Positions 46,108 to 64,000 of a DNA stretch of 64,000 nucleotides are shown here, piece by piece. Location: positions 1-64,000 of the forward strand of contig NTMA01000090.1 in the NCBI GenBank assembly GCA_002917075.1, read 5' to 3'. The position numbers and the translations under genes are program-made. Within the stretch, counting starts at the first letter, position 1. Every line of letters begins with the position of its first letter. The stretch comes from Hawksworthiomyces lignivorus. Its lineage: Eukaryota > Ascomycota > Sordariomycetes > Ophiostomatales > Ophiostomataceae. The notes beneath the pieces are model-generated. The model was given only the letters and a program-made list of their open reading frames with translations, was not told where the DNA came from and did no database searches.

Positions 46108-48480
46108 TCAAGATGTTTGTCCTTTGAAAAAAACTTCACGTGCTAGCTCTATCCAAAACTTGCGAGTCTCCCACACGGGAAGAATACCACAGATACCGAG
46201 AGCAGCAAATACCCATATGAATGAGATAACCACCCACGCATAAAAGAAATTTAAAGAAAAGACGTAACGCGACAAGAAAATGGGAATTGGAATAAGGAAA
46301 TCCATAATAAAAGATAGGACTATCGATAGAACCAGGGCCAAGATGTAAGCTCGCCGCAACGCCTTAGGATCTTCAAGAAAGCGCTCATCTGCGAGGAGAT
46401 CCTCGTCTTCCATCTGCACTGTTCGCAAGTCTTTAAGGTCGAGGCGATCATTACCGCCGGTCAATTCTAGGATGGTATCGGCGTCGGCACGCTGGTTGAT
46501 TGCATTCTCAGAAGATGATACGACCTTATTAGCATTAACCTGCTGCTTTGACTCATTGCCTCTATTTCCACTATTGACCGAGGGTGGAGATGTCGTGATG
46601 GTCGATTCGGCGGCTTGAGTAGAAGAAGATGATGCGGCTTCGATGACGTGCATGTTGATGGCGCGTGTTTTGGCCCAATCAAAGTTTTCTGGCTTGATCC
46701 ACGACACAACCACAGAGACAAAGAGCCCTGTAAGCACCCCTGCCATATTCCCAGCAAGAGTCGGATACGAGGCACCTGTTGTGGCTACGGTAAGCTCCCC
46801 GTAGTATACCTTAGCTTCAACTAGCCAAGCTGTAAGGCCGGCGGCCAGGCCTACAAGGCAACCGCTGATTGCGCCAAGGCGAGTCTGGCCGCTCCAGGTG
46901 ACTGTAAATGCTGCTGGGAAGACAGCTCCACCGATAAGAAGGCCCATGACTAAAAATAGCCAGTTGAGTGAGATACCAATCGCATTCCAGATGGTAGCGA
47001 AGGTGGCCATTATCACTGCAAAGACACAGATCATTACGTGTGACACAAATATGAGCTGTCTTGGTGATGCATTTGGCTTGAAGTATGTTTTGTACACATC
47101 AAACGTCAGAATAGATGACACAGCAATCAGCTCTGATGACGATGACGATGTCACAGCCATGAAAAGTGTGATTAGTAAAGCTATGGCACCATTCTTTCCT
47201 AGTAATGTTTGGGCACCGTATGAAGCTGCTAGTCCCGATGAGACTTCGGCCGATGTCATTGGATTGGGATATGTGGGATAGCCAGGATTGCTGGTAAGTG
47301 CAACTGCTGCTAGACCAAGCGTTGTAGCAAAGCCAAAAGGAATAGCAAACCAAGCAAAACCACCCAAAATGTAGGCTTTAACAGCTGTACTTGGTCGGCT
47401 AGCAATGGCACGCTGCCAATAGCCTTGATCCAGGAACACCGTTCCCATTCCAGAACAGAGTTGGATGACACCAAAGATGAGGCCGTAATTGGATTTGAGC
47501 GTCAGGTATGACCCATCTTCGTTGCCTTCAACCGGGCGTTCAATTGACGCCTGCTTAAGCAGCTCATACATTTTTTTAGGTGAGCCAATTAGGTTATTAG
47601 TGCAGTAGACGTCAAACATAAAATATAAGATAATGACCATCACAATGATAGTGTGAGAGAAGTCACCTAATGATCGTTAATTTTGCTCTGCGACGTCTTC
47701 TTTTTTTCTCCTGGTCAGCTCTAACTCACACAAGAATGTTGCTCGGAGGCCCCCTAAGACGACATAGATGGACACGCCTGTAGGAATCAGCCATGTTGCC
47801 GCGTACACATTCATACCCGTCAGGGAGCTGACGACAGCACTGCCACCAAGGAGTAACTGGCTAGCCACAAGAATGTTTGTGGCCATCGCGAAGCAAACAA
47901 AGATGATGTGTGTCGTTTTCCCATAACGCGCATGTACAATTTCGAGAAATGTATGACATTTCGGTGCGTTTTGTTTGACCTTGCAAGCTAAGACAGAAAA
48001 CATAAAGATCTGGACAGTAGCACCAGCGGCATCTAGCAGTGTCAGATGTGGCATCCCTTAAGAGCAGAAGGAAAATATATGAAAACTGACGTACACTATT
48101 GTATGTTAGATTTAAGTACTTGGATTTGAGGTGAAGGAAAATAGATTTTGACTCACCCAAAAGGGACCGCTGATTCCATACTCATATGCTACAGTTGAAC
48201 TGACTAGCAGTGTCGCTGCCCAGGTCCAAGCTGACACTACGCCACTTGCAATCAGACCTGTCTTAACATTGCGGCTGGCTGTATTGAATTCCTCGCTGGC
48301 TTTGGTTGAATAGGCTGTATATCGATTCTGCAGTAACTGTTAAGAATTGAAAATATTAGAGGAAAGAGGGAATTTTACCTGCACCCAAGAAACACCGGCC
48401 ATCAATAGGGCAAAAAAGAATCCTATTCCAACGACAACACCATAGCCGACTCCCTGTGGTAGGATAGCTGCTGCAGCCAT
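46108..48480 (-). CDS. DUR3: Urea transporter Dur3 (sodium:solute symporter family)
   Basis: Exons on the minus strand are 48379-48480, 48157-48327, a single base at 48095, 47730-48032 and 46108-47666, giving 711 aa. Dur3 imports urea (and polyamines in yeast) with protons across the plasma membrane. Family text includes [111 protein letters not shown] and [21 protein letters not shown]. About 15 membrane segments are visible. The start [14 protein letters not shown] is the first ATG. For exon 2 I chose the second of two in-frame acceptors (48327), because it gives the family length and a better branch distance. The one-base exon supplies the first base of Tyr92 in FWYAAGA; see the separate entry. 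Confidence 0.9.
48033..48156 (-). other. Twin introns flanking a one-nucleotide exon in DUR3
   Basis: Reading the minus strand, intron A (48156-48096, 61 nt) runs GTGAGT to CTAACATACAATAG, then a single T (48095). Intron B (48094-48033, 62 nt) runs GTACGT to CTGACACTGCTAG. Each has its own good donor, branch site and acceptor, and a normal length. The T completes TGG|T|AT GCC, reading W-Y-A-A-G-A. That matches the conserved Y-A-A/S-G-A of Dur3 proteins with no gap. Skipping this exon shifts the frame. The only other in-frame choice uses a weak GTCAAA donor, adds a residue and loses the Tyr. Confidence 0.7.
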
Positions 48481-50112: not shown

Positions 50113-51592
50113 ATGAGCCTTAGGGTAGCCAGCATCTTCTCGAAGCGAGCATCGCCAGGTGCGATTTTTCGCACTACTGCTCGGGCGACGGTGGTTGTGC
50201 CAGCGCAGAGGTTTACCCTACCCCTGAGTATCCGTGCCTTTACATCGGCTACAGCCAATGCCCCTCTAGCTGAGAACTTCGCGGTTAACGGTAATCGGCT
50301 CTGGTATGTTCGACTCCTCGGAAAGCGTTATACAACTTGTTTGAGACTGAAATAAAGTGAGTTAAATTGACAAGAGGAACAGGGATGAAATTCATTACAC
50401 GGCGCAATGGAGTCTACCATCGCCGGGCGGCCTAACGCGACTTTGCGCCACGCCTGAGGACAAAATGGCACGCGACTGGTTTCGTGATACCGTCATTGGA
50501 CTGGGTGCCGACTATAAAGTGAATGCGACGGGCTCGCAATTCGCAGTGTTTCCAGGCGAGGACAACTCTATTCCACCTATTGCAATGGGTAGCCATCTGG
50601 ACTCAGTGGCCACAGGCGGCAAGTTTGACGGTCCCTTGGGTGTCCTTGGAGCTCTCGAAGTAGTTCGCAGTATGCAGGAGCAGGGTGTCAAAACAAGGGC
50701 TCCGTTGGTCATTATTAATTGGACTAATGAGGAAGGTGCTAAGTTCTGGCCATTTTTGGGTTCATCCATTGTTTACGCTGGTCGCTCGACAGTCGAACAA
50801 GCACATGCATCGCTGACACACGATGGCTCTGGCATAACTATGGGTAGCGAACTAGCGAAAATTGGTTATATTGGCGATGGGCCAAACACGTTTGAAGAGT
50901 TCCCAATCTCTGCACACTTTGAAATTCACGTCGAGCAAGCTACGGACCTAGAGAGAGCTGGAAAACCAATTGGTTGGGTGACCGGCTGGCAGGGTATGAC
51001 ATGGTACTCAGTTAATCTCAAGGGTGAAGATGGCCATGCCAATACTTATCCCATGTATGGCCGTCGCGATGCACTGCAGGGCGCTGCCAAAATTATCACT
51101 GCTGTGGAGGAGCTCGCTTATACCCACAACGGCTATTCTACTGTTACGAATCTTCGCAGTGGTCCCTGGGGGGCCTGTAACATCCAATCCGATGTTCGTC
51201 TCGCTTTTTGCCTCATGCATAAAGAGAAAGGGGGACTTGAAACTATGGGCAGTGACATTGAAGCTAAGGTTAAAGGAGTTGTTGCTCTGCACGGCTTGGA
51301 GTTTGAGATGGAGCGCGATGTTCATCTGCCACCAGGTGAATTTTGGCCCGAAGCTGTGGACTGTGTTCGCCGCGCTTGTGGTGAAGATGGAATTGCCTCT
51401 CGCACGGGTACGGGCCATGACTCTACTATGACAACAAATCTAGTTCCGACAGCCATGGTTTTTGTACGTGCGAAGGATGGTATAAGCCACTCACCTAAAG
51501 AATGGAGCGACAAAGATGACTGTGCTAAAGGAGCGCTTGCGCTTGGCAAGGCCGTCCTTAACTTTGACTATTTGTTATCTACAAAGAAGTAG
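50113..51592 (+). CDS. N-carbamoyl amino acid / ureide amidohydrolase (M20 family)
   Basis: Two exons, 50113-50303 and 50383-51592 (phase 2, LW-DEIHYTAQW), encode 466 aa. The family includes N-carbamoyl-L-amino acid hydrolase, beta-ureidopropionase and allantoate amidohydrolase, all releasing ammonia and CO2 from a carbamoyl group. Metal ligands are visible: His135 (GSHLDS), Asp146 (GGKFDGPLG), Glu180/Glu181 (TNEEGAKF), His246 (HFEIHVEQ) and a C-terminal His (GTGHDST). The first 45 or so residues are Arg/Ser/Ala-rich without acids, like a mitochondrial presequence. The exact substrate cannot be read. The divergent urea transporter next door fits ureide or pyrimidine nitrogen salvage. Confidence 0.88.
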
Positions 51593-54199: not shown

Positions 54200-55021
54200 A
54201 TGGATTCTCCTAGTGTTATTGTCATTATCGGAAGCGGTGGCATGGGTCTTCCAATCGCTCGTCGACTAGGCACTGGGCGATTGTCTTCCTAGGTGACTTC
54301 TCAGACGCCAACCTTTCTACAGCTGAGATCACACTGACCGGGGAGGGTTATTCCGTTAATACTATGTCGGTTGACGTGTCAAACTTCGCATCTGTCAATA
54401 AATTAGCCCAGAGAACTGCGGCAGTTGGACGCATTGAGGCAATTATTCACACTGCCGGAGTGGGGCCATCTGCAGGATCTGCGCGCCGCGTCTACGAAAT
54501 CGATCTTCTCGGTACTGCTAACGTTATTGATGCATTTCTGCCTATTATCCAATATGGTGCTAGCCTGGTTTGCATCTCTAGCATGGCCGGCCATTTGTGT
54601 CCGCCATTAGAACCCGGGCTGGAACGCCATCTCGCTACCGCTCCGCGAGACCGACTTCTAGATCACCCAGGACTAAGTATTAGTGATTCTGATCCTCACG
54701 GTGCAGCTGGAGCCTATGGGCTATCCAAGTGTGGTAACTTGCTCCGCGTACAAGCTGCTGCTGGCGATTGGAGCCGCAAAGGTGCAAGGGTTAATTCCGT
54801 AAGTCCAGGTGTTATATCGATAGAAGTCGGTCGTCAGGAAACAGCGGGACCCGCAGGAAAATTCATTAAATTGTCCCCGGCAGGCAGGGCTGGTACGCCT
54901 GAGGACATTGTGAATGCTGTTATGTTTTTGGTTAGCACCGCTTCTTGCTTTATTACAGGCAGTGATATACTTTGTAGATGGAGGGGCTGTCTCCCCCTCA
55001 CGATGGAACAAAGCTCAATGA
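54200..55021 (+). pseudogene. Frameshifted short-chain dehydrogenase/reductase
   Basis: The reading starts well at 54200 (MDSPSVIVIIGSGGMGLPIA, a G-S-G-G-M-G cofactor loop) but hits TAG after RRLGTGRLSS. Shifting by one base near 54270 (a GGG run) continues the family text (AIVFLGDFSDANLS, then VDVSNF, HTAGVGPS, LVCISSMAG, GAYGLSK with the Tyr and Lys, VNSVSPGVIS). Near 54971 (a TTT run) a second one-base shift in the opposite direction restores the usual ending VDGGAVSPSRWNK and a stop at 55019-55021. No intron explains either shift. Both lie in short homopolymers, so real decay or sequence error are equally possible. I do not give a corrected protein. If functional, it would be a second SDR of the cluster. 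Confidence 0.7.
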
Positions 55022-56120
55022 ATTTAGATAGTAAACCACATACTAAGCTTTATTTAAAAAAAAAAAAAAACTTTCTACAAAAAAATCAACTTACTATGCA
55101 TATATATATATGTATTATTAAGTTAAAGGATGATATATTCAGAAACACCATACTATCATTGGTGAAATTGTAAATAGTACCAAGGCTGATTCTAACTTGC
55201 GAACTTTAATTTTCGACGAGGTGGGAAAGGTCGGTGGGAACGTGATATATAAACAGGAGGGTCTGTGAGCTGTTAGGCAAATAAGTTCAAATTTTGTTAG
55301 AGAGGTCAGTGACCCGAGTTTTATAGTTCAGTCTCTTGTCTCTTGAAGTGATCTCTTTAAAATATTACAGTTGGATAGTGTTGATAAACCTACGACAGGA
55401 ATGGGCGCAGCGTAGATATGCTGCTCCACCCTTAAATGCCGTAACCAGTAAGCCTTGTGAATTTCTGTGTTGTAGAATAAGTAAAGCTTCGACAAGACAC
55501 ATACTCTGAGATGTTCATCTGGATTGGTTTCGAGGATACGGTATACTCTTGCAGTCGGGTGGTTATGGATCTGCTATTAAAGAGCAGGTCGTGTATCGAT
55601 CGACATTTTGTTGACCTCATGCTTTAGAGGTTACGTGATAGTCGTTCGTGAGGATTATTGTTGTTTGCTTCTACCGCTTGATGTGGTGGAAGGGAGGTTA
55701 CAATGCTTAGCGTATTTGCTAAAATAGAAAGTTTGTGATGTGCTCTGAGACCCGAATATATCCGTCTCTGTGTGGCTAGGAGAGCTGTGATTGGTAGTAA
55801 CATAATGAGCGGGTCTGTTCGAGGAGTGGCAAGCCAAGACTTTTCCAACCGCTTCAAAGTTAAATATAAGAAAGCTGTTGAGCAGTGCTTACATAATACC
55901 CTGCCTGTAGGTTGATACCGTATGCCTATCACTTGAATACCGTGGTGATACACTGTATATAGCACTATATAGAGAGGGCTTCTCGCCCTGCCTCCCTCTA
56001 GGATATCTCTTTTGGCCTCTCCTAATCAATGGCTCTACTCAAACTGGCTTGACAAAAGCCCTTCCTAGATTCTGTTTCTAAGCTCTCTTAAATGATTCTC
56101 ATGCTCTCTATACATATCAG
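55022..56120. other. Intergenic region with dispersed repeat copy
   Basis: Between the broken SDR and the stop of the adenylate-forming reductase. An A14 tract is near 55056, and a TATATATA stretch near 55100. The second copy of the dispersed repeat lies at 55912-56002. The segment 55270-55900 has the look of degenerate repeat DNA, but I found no matching ends. No coding exon was recognised. Confidence 0.45.
55912..56002 (+). repeat. Dispersed repeat, copy 2
   Basis: Partner of 42767-42860, same orientation. It shares TTGATAC, ATACACTGTA and GAGGGCTTCTC landmarks at matching spacing, then diverges after the CTGCCTCCCTCTAGG stretch. Confidence 0.4.
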
Positions 56121-59100
56121 CTACATGATTCTATTGACCGCCCAGCGCACTTCTTCCACCACTTCGTTTATCGTAGCCTCGGCATCTATAGGTATAACAT
56201 CATCTTCTTCTTCTTCGATTGGTTCATGCTCTTGGACCTGCCCATCGACCATCTGGGTGGTCATATAATGACCTTTGCGTTGTGTCACACGAGTCTTCAG
56301 TACTTCAGCGGAAGCCTGTAGATCGATGAAGATGACATTAAGATGATCCTGCTTAGGATCATCGGTAACTGTCTCAGCTTTACAGAGTTTCCGAAGCGAA
56401 TCTCGGTAAACTCGATGTAACGCCGAGCAGCTGACCACCACAATATCGTATCCTAGTTGATGGATTGCATTTTCAGAGTATTGCCGGATGCGTGTCAGCC
56501 ATGACCACCGGTCGTTATCTGAGAGGCATATGCCACTGCTCATACGCGCAATAGCGTCGCGTGTGTGCAACGCATCACCTTCAACAAGTGCTCCATTCAT
56601 AGCATTTGCAAGGCGCTCACCAATAGTTGACTTGCCGGACCCAGAGGGACCTGCTATAATGATTGCAACCTTCTTATAGTGAAATTCATTAGGCTCCTTA
56701 TCTACCATTTCAAGTTTAGGTGCTTTATCCGATGTCTTCCATGCAGTGGCCAAGAAGCGCTGCACGAATTTTTTGACAAGCATAAGGTCGAGTACCGGTG
56801 CGGTAGCCAAAGTGCGTGAGAGCTGTTGTGCAATTTCTGTAGCGTACGTCTTGGATGGCGTGAACTTTTCGCGGTCGTATTTTGAAGCAAAAAAGTCTGC
56901 GAGCTTGATGGGGGGGTTCGCAACCGGATCTGGATTGGAATCACGAAGTCGGCGAATCCACTCCCGTGGCTCGACTTCCTCGAACATAAGACCAGATGCT
57001 CGAAGTGCCGGCAGTAAATCAGCCGTCCAGTCGAACGTACGTGGGTTGGCGACGTTGGCGACAAGCGCAAGTTTCGTACCTGTATCTGGTGGCGATAGGG
57101 TGATGTCCATGATTGCCTGCGCCACAGTATCTACAGGTAACCACGAAGGCTGCTCTTGTAGACGAGGAAGTGCACCTACTGTCAGCGCCGATTGCAGAAG
57201 CATGGGGATGGCTTCTGTAGCATTCCATATGCCAAAACGCGTGTCAGCTATGATTTGACCAATACGCATCACACGTACAGGCACACCACGAGATTCCGCA
57301 GCGCGTACGCAGATGTGCTCTGCGACGGCCTTGGACTGTGCGTATCCCATTCCCTGCGCCCAAGTGAAGTCTGGAAGTGTCTCAGGAACGTGGTTTCCTG
57401 GGAAATTAGCCATGGCGCTGACTGATGAGCAAAAACTGAAAGTAGCCGGAACTGTGCGATTGCCAGCGAGGCAAAGATCTATGAGGTGCCTGACACCGGA
57501 AATGCAATCTTGTTCAAAGGAAGAGAGGCGTAGGTTGAAATTGACAGACCATGCACAGTGGATCACAGCGCGAAGATTGTTGGTAAGCTCCCAGTACGTC
57601 TTTTCATCTAGGCCAAGCAAAGGATCGGACTGATTAAAAGGGAGGGCTCTGAGCTTGCGGCGGTGAGCTAGTGGTAGCACGTGGTATAGATGGCGGTCTA
57701 GGAGTGAAGTCTTTATTCTTCGCAGAGCTTGTTGTTCGTCTTTGGCTCGGACAAGACAATAGACATGCTTAATGGATGGGTCGGCTGCCAGACGAGCAAC
57801 TACGTGCGCGCCGAGAGACCCTGTCGCTCCGGTAATGACCTATACAAAGTTAATTTAGTTGCTCATTTTCAATCAAGACCAAAGCTGTTGAATTGGGATA
57901 GTTTACGTACCATCGATGTCCGTGGGTAATCGAAACCATTTGAAAAAGCGCTATACTTTTTGACGAGAGCACTCATCTCTGCTTCAACTAACTCGGAATC
58001 CATGGTCGTACCTGTCTTCAGCCCATATAAAAAAGCTCCAAGCTTCTCAATGCACGGGTAGTCGAACACAACATTACTCCCCAGTCTGTGGCCGCCGACA
58101 TCTACGTTGCGTAAGATCTCTTGGCGCAGCCTAATTGCTTGTAGAGAATCCATCCCTTGCGAGAAAAAGTCGATGTGATCATCAACTGTAGTGTGACCCC
58201 CGCCAAGAACGACAAGGATAATCTCTCGCAGAAACATCTTAATTTCGTCTAGGCTCATATCTTTGGCATTGGCCGCATTGATGACCTGATCAGCTTCCTC
58301 GTATGCCGTCGCAATTTCGACGGCGAATGCTTTATAGAATGCTTGCCTGATAATGCTTCCTTTATCTGTACGGGGGTATACCGCGTTTTGTGGCAAAACC
58401 CGAATCATATTTCTTGTCAGTCTGCCGTAGGCTTCCGATCGTTCGTTAACTGATTCCACGGCTGGCCAGATATGTTCGAGGATGGCTTCCTGAGATAGTC
58501 CTTTAGTAATCGGCGCCGGGATGAGTAATAGTCCAATATAGGGCCTTCCTGAGCCAAACACAACTGCCTCTGTGACCCAGCTGTCAGAACGAATGCGTCC
58601 CTCGAGTGACACAGGGTTGAATTTCTCTCCATTCACCAGAACAATCGTATCATCTAAGCGGGCGATATATTTCCACGCCCGAGGAATAGTGGGGTGCGGC
58701 TCGAATAAATCTTTAGTGGCATATGAGCCATCAGGCATATTAGAGGTCAGCTTTGCAGGCCAACCTTCACGTACACAACATTCAAAGATGTTGTGACCGC
58801 GGGGAATCCAGTTAAGAAAAGGCTTCAGTTTATCCGTCTCCCGCACGTAGTTCCATGCTTTGTCTCCGGCTGGTCGGAAGGATGTCATTAGCTGACCAAC
58901 CTCAGTTCTGTTTGGTAAGCTTGTGAAATTTGATGAAAGCGGAATGATTTACACTTACGCTCCATAATGTCCGACCAGGTTAACACCTGCGTTGACAAGA
59001 GTATCGCCTAGATCGTCTGGGCATGCAGAACCGCCGTACATGACTACCTTCAGCTTGCATAGCAACTCAATGCCTTTCGCGCTCTCTGTGAGTAGTTTAA

Positions 59101-60025
59101 GGGCATAAGGAACGCCATAAAAAATCTCAAACTGATATCGTTCTAGGATCGTCTCAAGGTAACCCGCCGTTAGCGGCAACTCTGCGTTGTACATATGAAT
59201 ACGTCTACCTGAGTAGATAGCCCGGAACATGTTGCATATGCCATGATTGTGATACAGCGGCAGAGTGATGAATGCTCGCATATTCATGTGCGTCGAATAA
59301 TTTACCAAGGCCGCCTTTTGAGTTTGGTAGATGGGCTTTGGAAGGCCTGTTGAACCACTAGAGTGGATGATGTAAACATGGTTTGCCGTCTCTATTGCGT
59401 GGTCAAGACTCCGATCAACCCTCGTATCAAACCCAGTCGGTATGCAGTCAACGGGAAACTCAAATGCAGGCCTAGGAGCAATATCGAGCATCTGAACGGT
59501 CATTTGGTCTTTCAAAGAGGCGATTGCTCTTGTGGCAGTCTCTGCGTATCGCGTGTCAACAACGATAGCCTTAGCATTTGTCGTCTGTACAAGCGATGAT
59601 ATGGCTTCCTGCGAAATCCGCGTAGAAAGAAAAAGAATGGTGTGTCCAAGCTTCATGAGTGCCAGCATGGAAATAAGATATTCAAAATTAGATGGACCGA
59701 GCATGGCGACTACTGTTGGCTTCTCGGCTGAAGATAGGCGCGCTGGCAGCTTCTGCTCATAATGGTGAGCGACGCGATATGCGAATATGTCCAGTTGACG
59801 CATAGAGTAATCGACATATTCAATACCAGATGATGGATAAGAAATAACAATCTGGTCACCAAGAATGCGTGCCCTTTGGCGCACAAGGTCATCGATAGTA
59901 TAAATATATTCCTCGTCTTCATCCATAGACTTCTGTGTCAGTTTCAGAGTATTTTCTCCAAGACCTTGTCCATTCTCTAACAAAGATCGCCCCGTAGGGT
60001 AGGAAGCTGCTAGCGGTGCGGCCAT
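56121..60025 (-). CDS. Adenylate-forming reductase (A-T-R) fused to a gluconokinase domain
   Basis: Three exons, 58959-60025, 57911-58907 and 56121-57839 (minus), give 1260 aa. The adenylation domain (about 30-520) has HSSGSTGLPKP (about 220-230), GVPYALKLL, MYGGSACP and GHYGATEVGQ at the exon 1/2 join. It activates a carboxylic acid as acyl-AMP. The thiolation domain (about 560-650) has GMDSLQA with the phosphopantetheine Ser610. The reductase domain (688-about 1010) has TGATGSLG and the active YAQSK (Tyr854, Lys858); it releases the acyl chain as an aldehyde or alcohol using NADPH. Residues about 1079-1260 then form a full gluconokinase-type P-loop kinase: GPSGSGKST (1085-1093), EGDALH, RMSSGICLSDNDRWSWL, CSALHRVYRDSLR and TQRKGHYM. 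Reductase and kinase share one exon with no stop. The start MAAPLAASYP is the first true ATG. Confidence 0.9.
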
Positions 60026-60560: not shown

Positions 60561-61593
60561 ATGCCATTGTCCAAGAGTTTCAAGCTTAACACAGGTGCCA
60601 AAATTCCAGCCGTGGGATTCGGTACTTGGCAAGCCAAACCGCACGAGGTCGAGCGAGCCGTGGAGCAGGCTCTCAAAGCAGGTTACCGTCATATCGATTG
60701 TGCGGCGATTTACCGCAATGAATCTGAAGTAGGGGCTGGTATCCGAGCTGCTGGCGTGCCCCGTAGCGAGCTCTTTATTACTGGCAAGCTATGGAACACA
60801 AAGCACCGACCAGAGGATGTGGAAGGTGCTCTAGACAAGACACTGAAAGATCTGGGCACGGACTACGTCGACCTATATCTAATGCACTGGCCAGTGTAAG
60901 TATTTGATTAACAATTTTTTGAAGAAAAAGGCAGCTAATCTGATGAATGTTGGTAGAGCGTTTAAATCCTCCGACAAATGGTTTCCCATTGATCAAAATG
61001 GCGTCTTTGAGCTAGTTGATATTGACCCAGCCACTACATACGCCGCTATGGAGACGCTTCTTACTACAGGGAAGGTGCGCGCTATTGGTGTATGTAACTT
61101 CAACGAGAGGCGCCTTGATGACTTGCTTTCCAAAGTCAAGGTGATACCGGCAGTAAATCAGATTGAGGCACATCCATATCTGCAACAACAAGCCCTGTTA
61201 GAGTATTGTCAGGCGAAAGATATTGTTGTCGAAGCTTATTCACCGCTTGGTAATAATCAGCAAGGCTTACCACGTACGGTTGATGATCCGAAAGTACAAG
61301 TGTTGGCTGCTCGCATAAGCATGGATGCTGGCCAGCTTCTATATTCCTGGGGTGTACAGCGTGGAACTGTTGTTCTACCTAAGAGCGTTACAGAGCAGCG
61401 AATCATATCGAATTTTCAGGTTGGCGAACTGCCTAAAGAAATATACGATGAGATAAACAAGTTGGAACGTCACAAGCGCTTCAACGTGCAAGCTCTGTGG
61501 GGTGTCGATATATTTGATGAAATAGGTGAAGAAGAAGTCAGGGCAATTGCGCGCGAGGCGGGACATGAGAATCTGACCAAGTTCACAGTATGA
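60561..61593 (+). CDS. Aldo-keto reductase
   Basis: Two exons, 60561-60895 and 60957-61593 (phase 2, [13 protein letters not shown]), encode 323 aa. It is an NADPH-dependent reductase of aldehydes and ketones with the (beta/alpha)8 fold. The catalytic tetrad is complete: Asp46, Tyr51 (DCAAIYRNE), Lys76 (TGKLWN) and His109 (LMHWPV). Other family blocks are [29 protein letters not shown] and the cofactor-binding [14 protein letters not shown] near the C-terminus. The start at 60561 ([23 protein letters not shown]) is the family start; an open frame extends upstream to 60387 but is unlike the family. It is divergent from the adenylate-forming reductase and could reduce the aldehyde that enzyme releases. 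Confidence 0.93.
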
Positions 61594-61697: not shown

Positions 61698-63974
61698 TCA
61701 AATCCATTTAGCGGAAGTGTAGTTGGTATCCATGAATCTGGTGACTCGGCTAATCCAGAAAAGGGGCCGAGGGCCTGGGGTGTCTTTGTCAGAATTCGAA
61801 TATTCGTTTGCGAGTTCCATAAATGGCCTGTTACTCACTAGTGAATCAATATCCAACCAATCTATAGTTTGCCACCCTTCCCACTGACTCTGGAGTAAGC
61901 CTAATGATGCACCTTGCCTCATATCGTAATTTAGAGGAAGCTGTCCGCTCCCGGCTACCATATTGCTATCATCGATATCAAGTTGTTGGCTGCTCGGAGA
62001 AAGTACGTGTCCTAGTGGCAGCGTGTGCTGTGGCTCCTTCTGAGATGATCTGCAGAGCGCTTCTTGTCTTAATTCTTCTAGAATAATGCTGTACCTGCGG
62101 CTAGGAGAATTTGATGCCGTAGCTCTGGCTAAATGCAATTGGCATCGCTCGGCTAACTGGAACAGATCATTAGCTGGATCTTGTGACATTCTATTTTCAT
62201 ATAATTCTAAGCGCATGTCCCAACCGAGTGCATTGCGTTGAATCTCCCAGACGTATACCACAGCTAGAGAGCAGAAGGTGACGTAGTGCGTCCACCAAAA
62301 AGCATAGAAGAGAGTTCCATCTTGCGCCATCAGGTCGACAATGCCTAGAACCTCTCGGGCAGCAGAGATGCAGTCAGATACAGCTTTTGTGGCGATCAAG
62401 GGCTGCTCCCGATGGCTACCAATTTGACCCAGAAGAAACGGGCGGTTCAGATGGATGATGGCGTGGTCGCGTGCCAACCGCATCGTCGTAGCCTGGCGTC
62501 TAAATGGATAGACTAAACTGCTCGGATTGATAGAACTCAAGATTGCCGGCAAACTTGCTGTCCAGTTGTCCAGATCTAGGCGAATTTCTTGAACTGCTTG
62601 CATCAAAGAATCGCCAGGATCTTGGTTGATGGCGTAGACCGACTGCGATATCCGGCCAACGATTCGACCAATTCTGAGACGTGAGCATGCGAAGATACGT
62701 GTAAATAAGAATATGGTCCCGTACCTAGCATGAAAGATGAGAGAGTCTATAGCACAATCTTGGCTGCCTGCATCTCTGCCTGGGCCTGTGGAAGTCATGT
62801 CTTCATCATTGACAGAATCAGGTAGCTCCTGATCAATATTTTCGTCGTGATAGTGCCGGGGCCTTCCGAACATGATACCCATATATGCATCCAGAATATA
62901 TGCCACCCAAAATGTTCGTTTTCGACATTGAGCATTGATGTAATCTTCGGGGAAATCTTTGCCACTCAAGGAGCGAGCTGGATTTGCACGCCTGTGCAAA
63001 CCTAAGGCGGCAATTGTTTGTAACGCGTGGCCAAAAACATACCAGGCTTGATTGAGGCGTGATGTGTGTAGCAAGTAGAGAACTTGGATTAGACGGGCTT
63101 GAACCGAATCTAGAGTTGGGTACCCTGTGGCTGCTTCAGCGAGGCGTGTTGCCGCTAAGAATAATCTATCACTCTTTCGCGTAGACACCAGTTCGTCGCG
63201 GTAAGAATCACTACCACTAACGCCGCTCTCGCTCTTACCCTGGTGGAATATCGCAATAGCAAGGACAACCAGCACTATGGACGCCTTCATCTCGCCAATG
63301 CCGTGCTCAACGGGCAAGCCACTGTCTAGATTTTGATGCACTTGATGCAACCAGAGCCCAACACTCGGCCTATGGAGAAATCTGTAGGTTGCGACGCAGA
63401 TGTCATGATAATATGCAACGAGCTCTTTCGATGTAGCAAGGTTAGGAATTGGGAACACGTTACTCTGGCTGACAGCCTCGTAAGCTTTGTCGCCAGCTTG
63501 GTCTTGAAGCTGCAGCCGCTCATTACCATTGCTGAGGTTGTAACTTGCAGCCTTCCGTGGATGTTGGCTTGAGAGTCTCTTCCACGCACGATGCAGAAAT
63601 GCATGACCTGATGTTGGTTCAACATACTGGCCTTGAATCTCTGTGACACCAAAAACAGGCGAAGCTCCTGATGGAGCTGGCGGTAGATCTTGCTGCTGCT
63701 GCTGCTCTTCTTGGTGTTGATGATGCTGCGAACTTGCTGTGATATATCTGGCATCATGTGGTGTTCGCGGACTGACAGATACGGCAGCTGCTATGCTTCG
63801 AGCGTCGCGTCTCTCCACGGCTGCAGCAGCAGGAAGCGGCGTTGGTGGTCTGCCACGGGCATATTTGCTCTCATAGAGGCATGGAATGCCTTTTTTGGTA
63901 CAATTCAGACATGGAAGAGTTCCGGAGCATTTTGCCTTTCTCTGCTTACACGAGTCGCATGCTCTGCTCACCAT
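61698..63974 (-). CDS. Zn2Cys6 transcription factor
   Basis: An open frame of 758 codons starts at 63974. The binuclear zinc cluster is at residues 6-32 (Cys 6, 9, 16, 22, 25, 32: ACDSCKQRKAKC, then PCLNCTKKGIPC). It is followed by a basic linker, a Gln/His-rich region and the fungal-specific middle homology region (for example TLDSVQARLIQVLYLLHTSR, ALGLHRRA, KRTFWVAYILDAYMGIMFGRPRHY). A 51 nt in-frame intron is likely at 62674-62724 (GTACGG to CTCAG), because removing it gives SLIFHARIGRIVGRIS, closer to the family. A second possible intron (61784-61838, GTGAGT, branch TCTGAC, AAAG) would give another C-terminus ending near 61691. It is probably the local regulator of the cluster. Its own promoter lies at or beyond the window edge. 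Confidence 0.88.
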   Translation of the reverse strand: MVSRACDSCKQRKAKCSGTLPCLNCTKKGIPCLYESKYARGRPPTPLPAAAAVERRDARSIAAAVSVSPRTPHDARYITASSQHHQHQEEQQQQQDLPPAPSGASPVFGVTEIQGQYVEPTSGHAFLHRAWKRLSSQHPRKAASYNLSNGNERLQLQDQAGDKAYEAVSQSNVFPIPNLATSKELVAYYHDICVATYRFLHRPSVGLWLHQVHQNLDSGLPVEHGIGEMKASIVLVVLAIAIFHQGKSESGVSGSDSYRDELVSTRKSDRLFLAATRLAEAATGYPTLDSVQARLIQVLYLLHTSRLNQAWYVFGHALQTIAALGLHRRANPARSLSGKDFPEDYINAQCRKRTFWVAYILDAYMGIMFGRPRHYHDENIDQELPDSVNDEDMTSTGPGRDAGSQDCAIDSLIFHARYGTIFLFTRIFACSRLRIGRIVGRISQSVYAINQDPGDSLMQAVQEIRLDLDNWTASLPAILSSINPSSLVYPFRRQATTMRLARDHAIIHLNRPFLLGQIGSHREQPLIATKAVSDCISAAREVLGIVDLMAQDGTLFYAFWWTHYVTFCSLAVVYVWEIQRNALGWDMRLELYENRMSQDPANDLFQLAERCQLHLARATASNSPSRRYSIILEELRQEALCRSSQKEPQHTLPLGHVLSPSSQQLDIDDSNMVAGSGQLPLNYDMRQGASLGLLQSQWEGWQTIDWLDIDSLVSNRPFMELANEYSNSDKDTPGPRPLFWISRVTRFMDTNYTSAKWI

Positions 63975-64000
63975 TTGCCTCTTAGCGGTAGCCCGATCGG

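Follow-up and report, generated by a model that had tools for sequence, protein, structure and literature searches.

A gluconokinase-type kinase fused to an A-T-R reductase in Hawksworthiomyces lignivorus, its possible role and its recurrence and loss in other fungi

The window analysed here, a stretch of 64,000 bp from the fungus Hawksworthiomyces lignivorus (contig NTMA01000090.1, assembly GCA_002917075.1, positions 1 to 64,000), carries on its minus strand a gene of three exons whose product combines adenylation (A), carrier (T) and thioester reductase (R) domains with a C-terminal kinase of the gluconate kinase (GntK) type (Table 1; the product is from now on referred to as the A-T-R-kinase protein). 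When twelve splice combinations were translated, two gave a single terminal stop, the alternative being four residues longer and differing inside the GHYGATE motif. The last exon is an open frame of 572 codons without internal stop and holds both reductase and kinase, as proposed in an earlier reading made from the sequence alone (the sequence-only reading), and the spliced translation agrees with the length of 1260 aa given there and contains every motif that was quoted. The linker between reductase and kinase is however shorter than the ~70 residues then suggested, since the reductase fold extends to about residue 1055, and only ~20–25 residues appear flexible; in the predicted structure the pLDDT (predicted local distance difference test) is below 50 at exon residues 369–386, equal to residues 1057–1074 of the protein.

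Table 1. Features of the A-T-R-kinase locus and of the locus of the kinase-less paralog, which lies on another contig (C65) of this genome.
Feature	Position	Strand	Remarks
A-T-R-kinase gene	56121..60025	minus	1260 aa; ATG at 60025, stop at 56121-56123; exons 60025-58959, 58907-57911, 57839-56121
Intron 1	58908..58958	minus	GTAAGT...CAG; donor at 58958, acceptor at 58908
Intron 2	57840..57910	minus	GTACGT...TAG; donor at 57910, acceptor at 57840
Adenylation domain	58292..59896	minus	~residues 44-561, split by intron 1
Carrier (PP-binding) domain	58028..58231	minus	residues 582-649; DSL serine
Thioester reductase domain, exon-3 part	56739..57839	minus	residues 689-1055; TGATG, YAQSK
Flexible linker	56670..56738	minus	~residues 1056-1078
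GntK-type kinase domain	56136..56669	minus	~residues 1079-1256
P-loop GPSGSGKST	56625..56651	minus	residues 1085-1093
Aldo-keto reductase gene	60561..61593	plus	aldehyde/aldose reductase relatives; divergent, ~535 bp from the A-T-R-kinase start
Zn2Cys6 transcription factor	61698..64000	minus	extends past the window end; homologue beside the C65 paralog
PF04199 hydrolase	~64.4-65.5 kb		same contig, past the window
Major facilitator superfamily (MFS) transporter	~66.9-68.7 kb		same contig, past the window
Kinase-less A-T-R paralog	C65 ~36.3-40.0 kb		ends with the helix that immediately precedes the linker position
Zn2Cys6 regulator homologue	C65 33.1-35.0 kb
PF04199 hydrolase homologue	C65 31.5-32.6 kb		~47% identical
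MFS homologue	C65 29.6-31.3 kb		best match in the rest of the genome, 54% over 147 residues
Aldo-keto reductase homologue	C65 27.0-28.4 kb
Galactonate dehydratase	C65:25087-25929	minus	NF010624 316 bits, cut-off 311; adjoins the C65 aldo-keto reductase

A search with Pfam gave the domain order AMP-binding, AMP-binding_C_3, PP-binding, NAD_binding_4 and AAA_33. The first part is arranged as in the NRPS-like A-T-R carboxylic acid reductases of fungi, where AMP-binding is followed by PP-binding and then NAD_binding_4 and a condensation domain is lacking, and the carrier serine and the TGxxG and YxxxK motifs of the reductase are present. In a fold search, which listed mostly reductases and epimerases, the R domain matched that of a characterised carboxylic acid reductase from Neurospora crassa, solved as R domain (8aep); the full-length Neurospora enzyme presumably ends at this domain, without the kinase tail found here. 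The score against the thioester-reductase model TIGR01746 was 187.8 bits with a cut-off of 213.35, which says little about the A-T-R-kinase protein since the six relatives scanned also fall below (188.3–209.4), and models of this type are intended for bacteria and archaea. According to the domain description in PMC11050029, the glycine betaine reductase ATRR has two consecutive reductase domains (A-T-R-R); no such second reductase was found by Pfam, where a single NAD_binding_4 stretch is followed by the kinase.

The assignment of the tail to GntK made by the sequence-only reading is well founded, as it reaches 146.5 bits against TIGR01313 (curated cut-off 113.75), has the P-loop and nucleotide-site motifs and shows the GntK fold. 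By sequence the closest solved structures are 3t61 (deposited as gluconokinase), 4eun (as thermoresistant glucokinase) and 1knq (as gluconate kinase). Fold, P-loop and other GntK motifs are shared with the gluconate kinase GntK of E. coli (1ko1, 1knq), which is a stand-alone enzyme, while the fused group is altered at positions nearly invariant in stand-alone fungal kinases. The equivalog-level NCBIfam gluconokinase models were missed (105 and 93.7 bits, cut-offs 265 and 304), and this carries little weight since a stand-alone GntK of the same genome, on contig C13, misses them too (152.5 and 126.5 bits). Three loci in the genome exceed the TIGR01313 cut-off, the fused gene and stand-alone genes on C13 and C119, and the idea that the fused kinase is the only gluconokinase of the fungus was therefore rejected. 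The C13 gene has an apparent intron directly after the EGD motif that is missing in the fused gene, and the gene on C119 (122.7–123.3 kb) has an odd P-loop (GATASGKS), a divergent lid and a very long branch in the kinase tree described below.

The spread of the fusion was followed among the best 120 of 1603 matches to the full-length protein (7993 candidates scored); a search with the kinase part matched three fused proteins. Fusions of similar length recur in many genera, and the possibility that the Hawksworthiomyces gene is unique was discarded; among the matches listed are Colletotrichum, Fusarium, Trichoderma, Alternaria, Bipolaris, Verticillium, Chaetomium and others, genera that we take to be filamentous ascomycetes. 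To describe the state of the kinase, 14 core positions were picked from an alignment (A1) containing the A-T-R-kinase protein and the stand-alone C13 kinase, and a tail was called decayed when at least three of the 14 residues were changed and absent when fewer than 60 residues of kinase were left. On these thresholds 95 of the 120 relatives have a full-length kinase with at most two core changes, 12 are decayed, three are truncated and ten have fewer than 60 residues; all 14 residues are intact in the A-T-R-kinase protein and in 71 relatives. The fusion is thus real and not a chance arrangement, since the tail lies well above the TIGR01313 cut-off and is full-length in most of these relatives. 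Many of the fused relatives carry the UniRef name 'gluconokinase', a label that is probably misleading. Two Seiridium proteins (P0067 and P0116; 2096 and 2050 aa) have an extra C-terminal part, with PF09949 among the precomputed domains, and are possibly merged gene models.

When comparing 94 fused kinases (the two over-long Seiridium tails dropped) with 120 stand-alone ones (P0121 and P0136 dropped as fusion fragments), the nucleotide site was found to be kept in the fused group while other positions differ. Position 1117 is N in 99% of the stand-alone kinases and A (83%) or S (14%) in the fused ones, position 1221 is S in 100% compared to G (50%) or S (40%), and position 1163 is K in 100% compared to K (51%), R (36%) or T (10%); the A-T-R-kinase protein itself has A, G and H at these three places and so lacks the N, S and K of the stand-alone enzymes. 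Similar shifts are seen at position 1194 (Y in 83% against D in 89% of the fused) and 1226 (L in 100% against Y in 55% and H in 27%), and R1138 and P1238 are examples of nearly fixed residues peculiar to the fused kinases. Positions 1117, 1163 and 1221 may take part in gluconate binding; a literature search on how gluconate is bound in crystal structures yielded nothing usable. Since putative substrate-side positions differ while the nucleotide site is kept, the pattern is read as a possible change in substrate choice.

Phylogenetic analysis of the A-T-R part (FastTree, 126 rows, outgroup of partial paralogs from the own genome) placed the A-T-R-kinase protein and its 120 relatives in one clade with a support of 100, the protein itself belonging to a group of six (support 92), while the remaining 115 are joined together with a support of only 5 at one of the two deepest branches inside the clade. 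Assuming one gain, the tree calls for six losses and eight decays of the kinase, giving 14 events without the three truncated rows and 17 with them, numbers that refer to the 120 listed relatives and one tree and depend on the thresholds above. Some of the decayed, absent or truncated tails may be gene-model errors. A second tree with 66 of 214 kinase rows (34 fused and 32 stand-alone, taken by stride together with chosen rows, all fungal and without bacterial kinases) grouped the fused kinases in a single clade (100/100), set apart by a long branch (3.26 changes per column); the tree flags long branches, including the one joining the A-T-R-kinase protein with P0002. A fungal origin of the fused kinase seems likely.

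The decayed tails have lost P-loop, lid or other core residues and are still in frame, and several retain the DLQ and DVxPVDA strands. Six of them (P0086, P0100, P0102, P0104, P0112 and P0113) appear to be pseudokinases in which P-loop and lid are gone while the core strands are kept and the reductase motifs are intact. In five decayed pairs the kinase identity was 58.0% (A domain 91.0%), 73.7% (94.3%), 70.8% (91.0%), and 70.8% and 70.2% (89.1% each), compared to a mean of 79.7% (5–95% range 72.3–87.7) for intact pairs with an A-domain identity of 90–95% and 73.7% (65.5–81.5) for those at 85–90%. All five lie below the intact mean and two fall outside the intact band, showing that decayed tails tend to diverge faster than intact ones at similar A-domain identity. 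The case that this makes for selection acting on intact kinases is modest, and the conservation of the nucleotide site makes a stronger one.

To address the acid specificity, the A domain was aligned to 4-chlorobenzoate ligase, in which PLYHVVG stands opposite its PLYHNHG, and the pocket was mapped from what we take to be the residue list of that enzyme. The putative pocket, NLHNHGHGGQ (residues 242, 255, 259, 260, 261, 331, 353, 355, 360 and 361), is shared by 87 of the 96 rows that bear a kinase (of the remaining nine, eight depart from it by gaps only) and by 22 of 25 rows without an intact kinase, the other three carrying substitutions. In the paralog on contig C65, the closest A-T-R match in the genome (~39–54% identical depending on the piece) and without kinase tail, nine of the ten positions are readable and all are identical. 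Since the same pocket occurs in this paralog and in most rows without an intact kinase, it is probably older than the fusion and mostly outlives the kinase.

The two A-T-R genes also resemble each other in their surroundings, with homologues of the regulator, the hydrolase, the transporter and the aldo-keto reductase beside both (Table 1), and only the C65 locus has a galactonate dehydratase nearby. Four common neighbours seem unlikely by chance, a matter of judgement and not of a computed test. From their co-occurrence at two loci of this genome the PF04199 hydrolase, the MFS transporter and the Zn2Cys6 regulator seem to form one cluster with the A-T-R-kinase gene, and the divergent aldo-keto reductase is a possible pathway partner.

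As to substrate class, order of the steps, cluster membership and product, what we infer is the following. We regard it as about an even call that the A-T-R-kinase protein is a bifunctional pathway enzyme that activates and reductively releases a polar hydroxy-acid and also phosphorylates either this acid or the product by means of its GntK-derived kinase. Judging from the domain families, the A domain would adenylate a small polar carboxylic acid, the carrier would bind it in thioester linkage and the R domain would free it reductively, most simply as the aldehyde, which the divergent aldo-keto reductase may convert to an alcohol; the kinase would transfer phosphate from ATP to a hydroxyl of either the acid or its reduced form. 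Sugar acids and other polyhydroxy-acids are the likely substrate class, with the substrate itself probably other than gluconate. As the paralog without kinase has this acid pocket too, and as the pocket mostly persists where the kinase is gone, phosphorylation looks like an added step that would be dispensable in some lineages. We propose more tentatively a fungal pathway in which a single protein chain converts a polyhydroxy-acid to a phosphorylated product (an aldehyde, a polyol or a sugar-like compound) by a neofunctionalised gluconokinase of new specificity, the tail having been gained once and lost or killed about 14 times in the rows examined while the choice of acid stayed nearly fixed. 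The reduced and phosphorylated sugar-acid product suggested by the sequence-only reading remains a good guess with circumstantial support from the galactonate dehydratase near the C65 paralog, while an ordinary gluconokinase coupled to every turnover is disfavoured since the substrate-side residues are changed and the kinase is repeatedly lost or decayed with a mostly unchanged A pocket.

Several observations weigh against this interpretation. The galactonate dehydratase sits at the paralog locus and not at that of the A-T-R-kinase gene; the neighbour families are large and only the transporter has its best genome match on C65, single matches to the regulator (C111, C29), the hydrolase (C181, C159 and others) and the aldo-keto reductase (C142 and others) being better or equal elsewhere. 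R domains are able to make alcohols too. The DxDR aspartate D1131 is missing from several kinase-bearing rows, the 14 core positions were our own choice from an alignment that includes the A-T-R-kinase protein, and of the five decayed pairs three fall within the range of intact ones, while three of the five draw on one set of three Trichoderma rows. With 12 decayed, ten nearly absent and three truncated tails among the 120 relatives, the A-T-R reaction does not go together with the kinase in every case.

Some of these points fit instead a kinase fold that by now serves mainly for structure or regulation, an incipient pseudokinase retained to stabilise the reductase. The eight separate decay events, the in-frame tails that keep core strands without P-loop or lid and the three pairs no more diverged than intact ones speak for it, but with all 14 core residues kept here and in 71 of the 120 relatives (at positions picked with the A-T-R-kinase protein in the alignment), two pairs more diverged than intact ones and ten relatives with almost no tail, it is a minority possibility that we consider rather unlikely. 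Also unlikely in our opinion is a true gluconokinase riding on the reductase, where oxidation of the 6-phosphogluconate that it makes would supply the reductase with NADPH and the substrate of the reductase is untouched; TIGR01313 membership and GntK fold agree with it, whereas two stand-alone GntK loci above the cut-off exist in the genome besides the fused one and the near-invariant N, S and K at 1117, 1221 and 1163 are replaced in the A-T-R-kinase protein and often or mostly differ in the fused group. Phosphorylation might also be transient, the phosphate serving as leaving group in an elimination or a ring closure and being absent from the end product; that the tail may disappear while the A pocket stays mostly as it was suits a step that has alternatives, and we nevertheless hold this for improbable. 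In eight of the ten relatives scored as tail-less the protein stops with the helix that immediately precedes the linker, as could be expected if two adjacent genes had been merged by annotation, but with both domains on one stop-free exon and the fused form recurring at similar length across many genera this was rejected as highly improbable.

The architecture was thought to be undescribed in the sequence-only reading, and while the fusion itself is real and no report of a product was met with, it is common in filamentous fungi and has been in print as a table entry since 2014 and again in 2016. In Table 2 of PMC4073137, AFLA_054270 of Aspergillus flavus is given as 'A-T-R-gntK', a secondary-metabolite backbone gene of 1251 aa with an RPKM (reads per kilobase per million mapped reads) of 0.0–0.3, with counterparts in A. 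oryzae and A. parasiticus and with a transcription factor in its cluster; compared by table entry and not by sequence it has the same four-domain order and a similar length, and the entry lists no product. Table 5 of PMC5148876 has PAC_02202 of Phialocephala subalpina as 'A-T-R-Kinase' (1227 aa, secondary-metabolite cluster 5), likewise the same architecture by table entry and not by sequence, with no function stated in the entry. The candidate of an unprinted architecture was rejected on these two entries. PFICI_12508 of Pestalotiopsis fici (P0063), which is 54% identical over 98% to the A-T-R-kinase protein and has the fused kinase, is one of thirteen A-T-R enzymes for which, according to PMC9605436, no biochemical study has been reported. 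The word 'kinase' is not mentioned in PMC2823734 and PMC6737921 gave no relevant match.

The A-T-R-kinase protein is thus of an already known but uncharacterised kind of fusion, present in many well-studied genera, yet no functional study or product of such a fusion was found among the papers listed in literature searches, for which subscription papers were mostly out of reach. If reductase and kinase act on one molecule, a single protein would lead from an acid to a compound both reduced and phosphorylated, and fungal metabolites that carry phosphate and easily escape notice would be predicted. By decaying repeatedly, the kinase offers a natural experiment on its role, and if the tail has been lost often while the choice of acid stayed nearly fixed, natural pairs with and without kinase would be available for finding the product.

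Further out on the contig, ~16–20 kb beyond the A-T-R-kinase gene, a GFO/IDH/MocA oxidoreductase (C182:76492-77670; nearest to inositol 2-dehydrogenase, below the model cut-off) and a sugar transporter (78353-80225) were identified. A short-chain dehydrogenase at 54200-55170 on the plus strand has an ATG-54200 frame that stops near 54290 and its body in another frame, indicating either a break in the frame, an intron that was missed or a fault in the assembly. Left of the A-T-R-kinase gene are also an M20 peptidase-family protein (50366-51592, plus) and a sodium:solute symporter (46108-47676, minus) that we take to resemble a urea transporter, both apparently unrelated.
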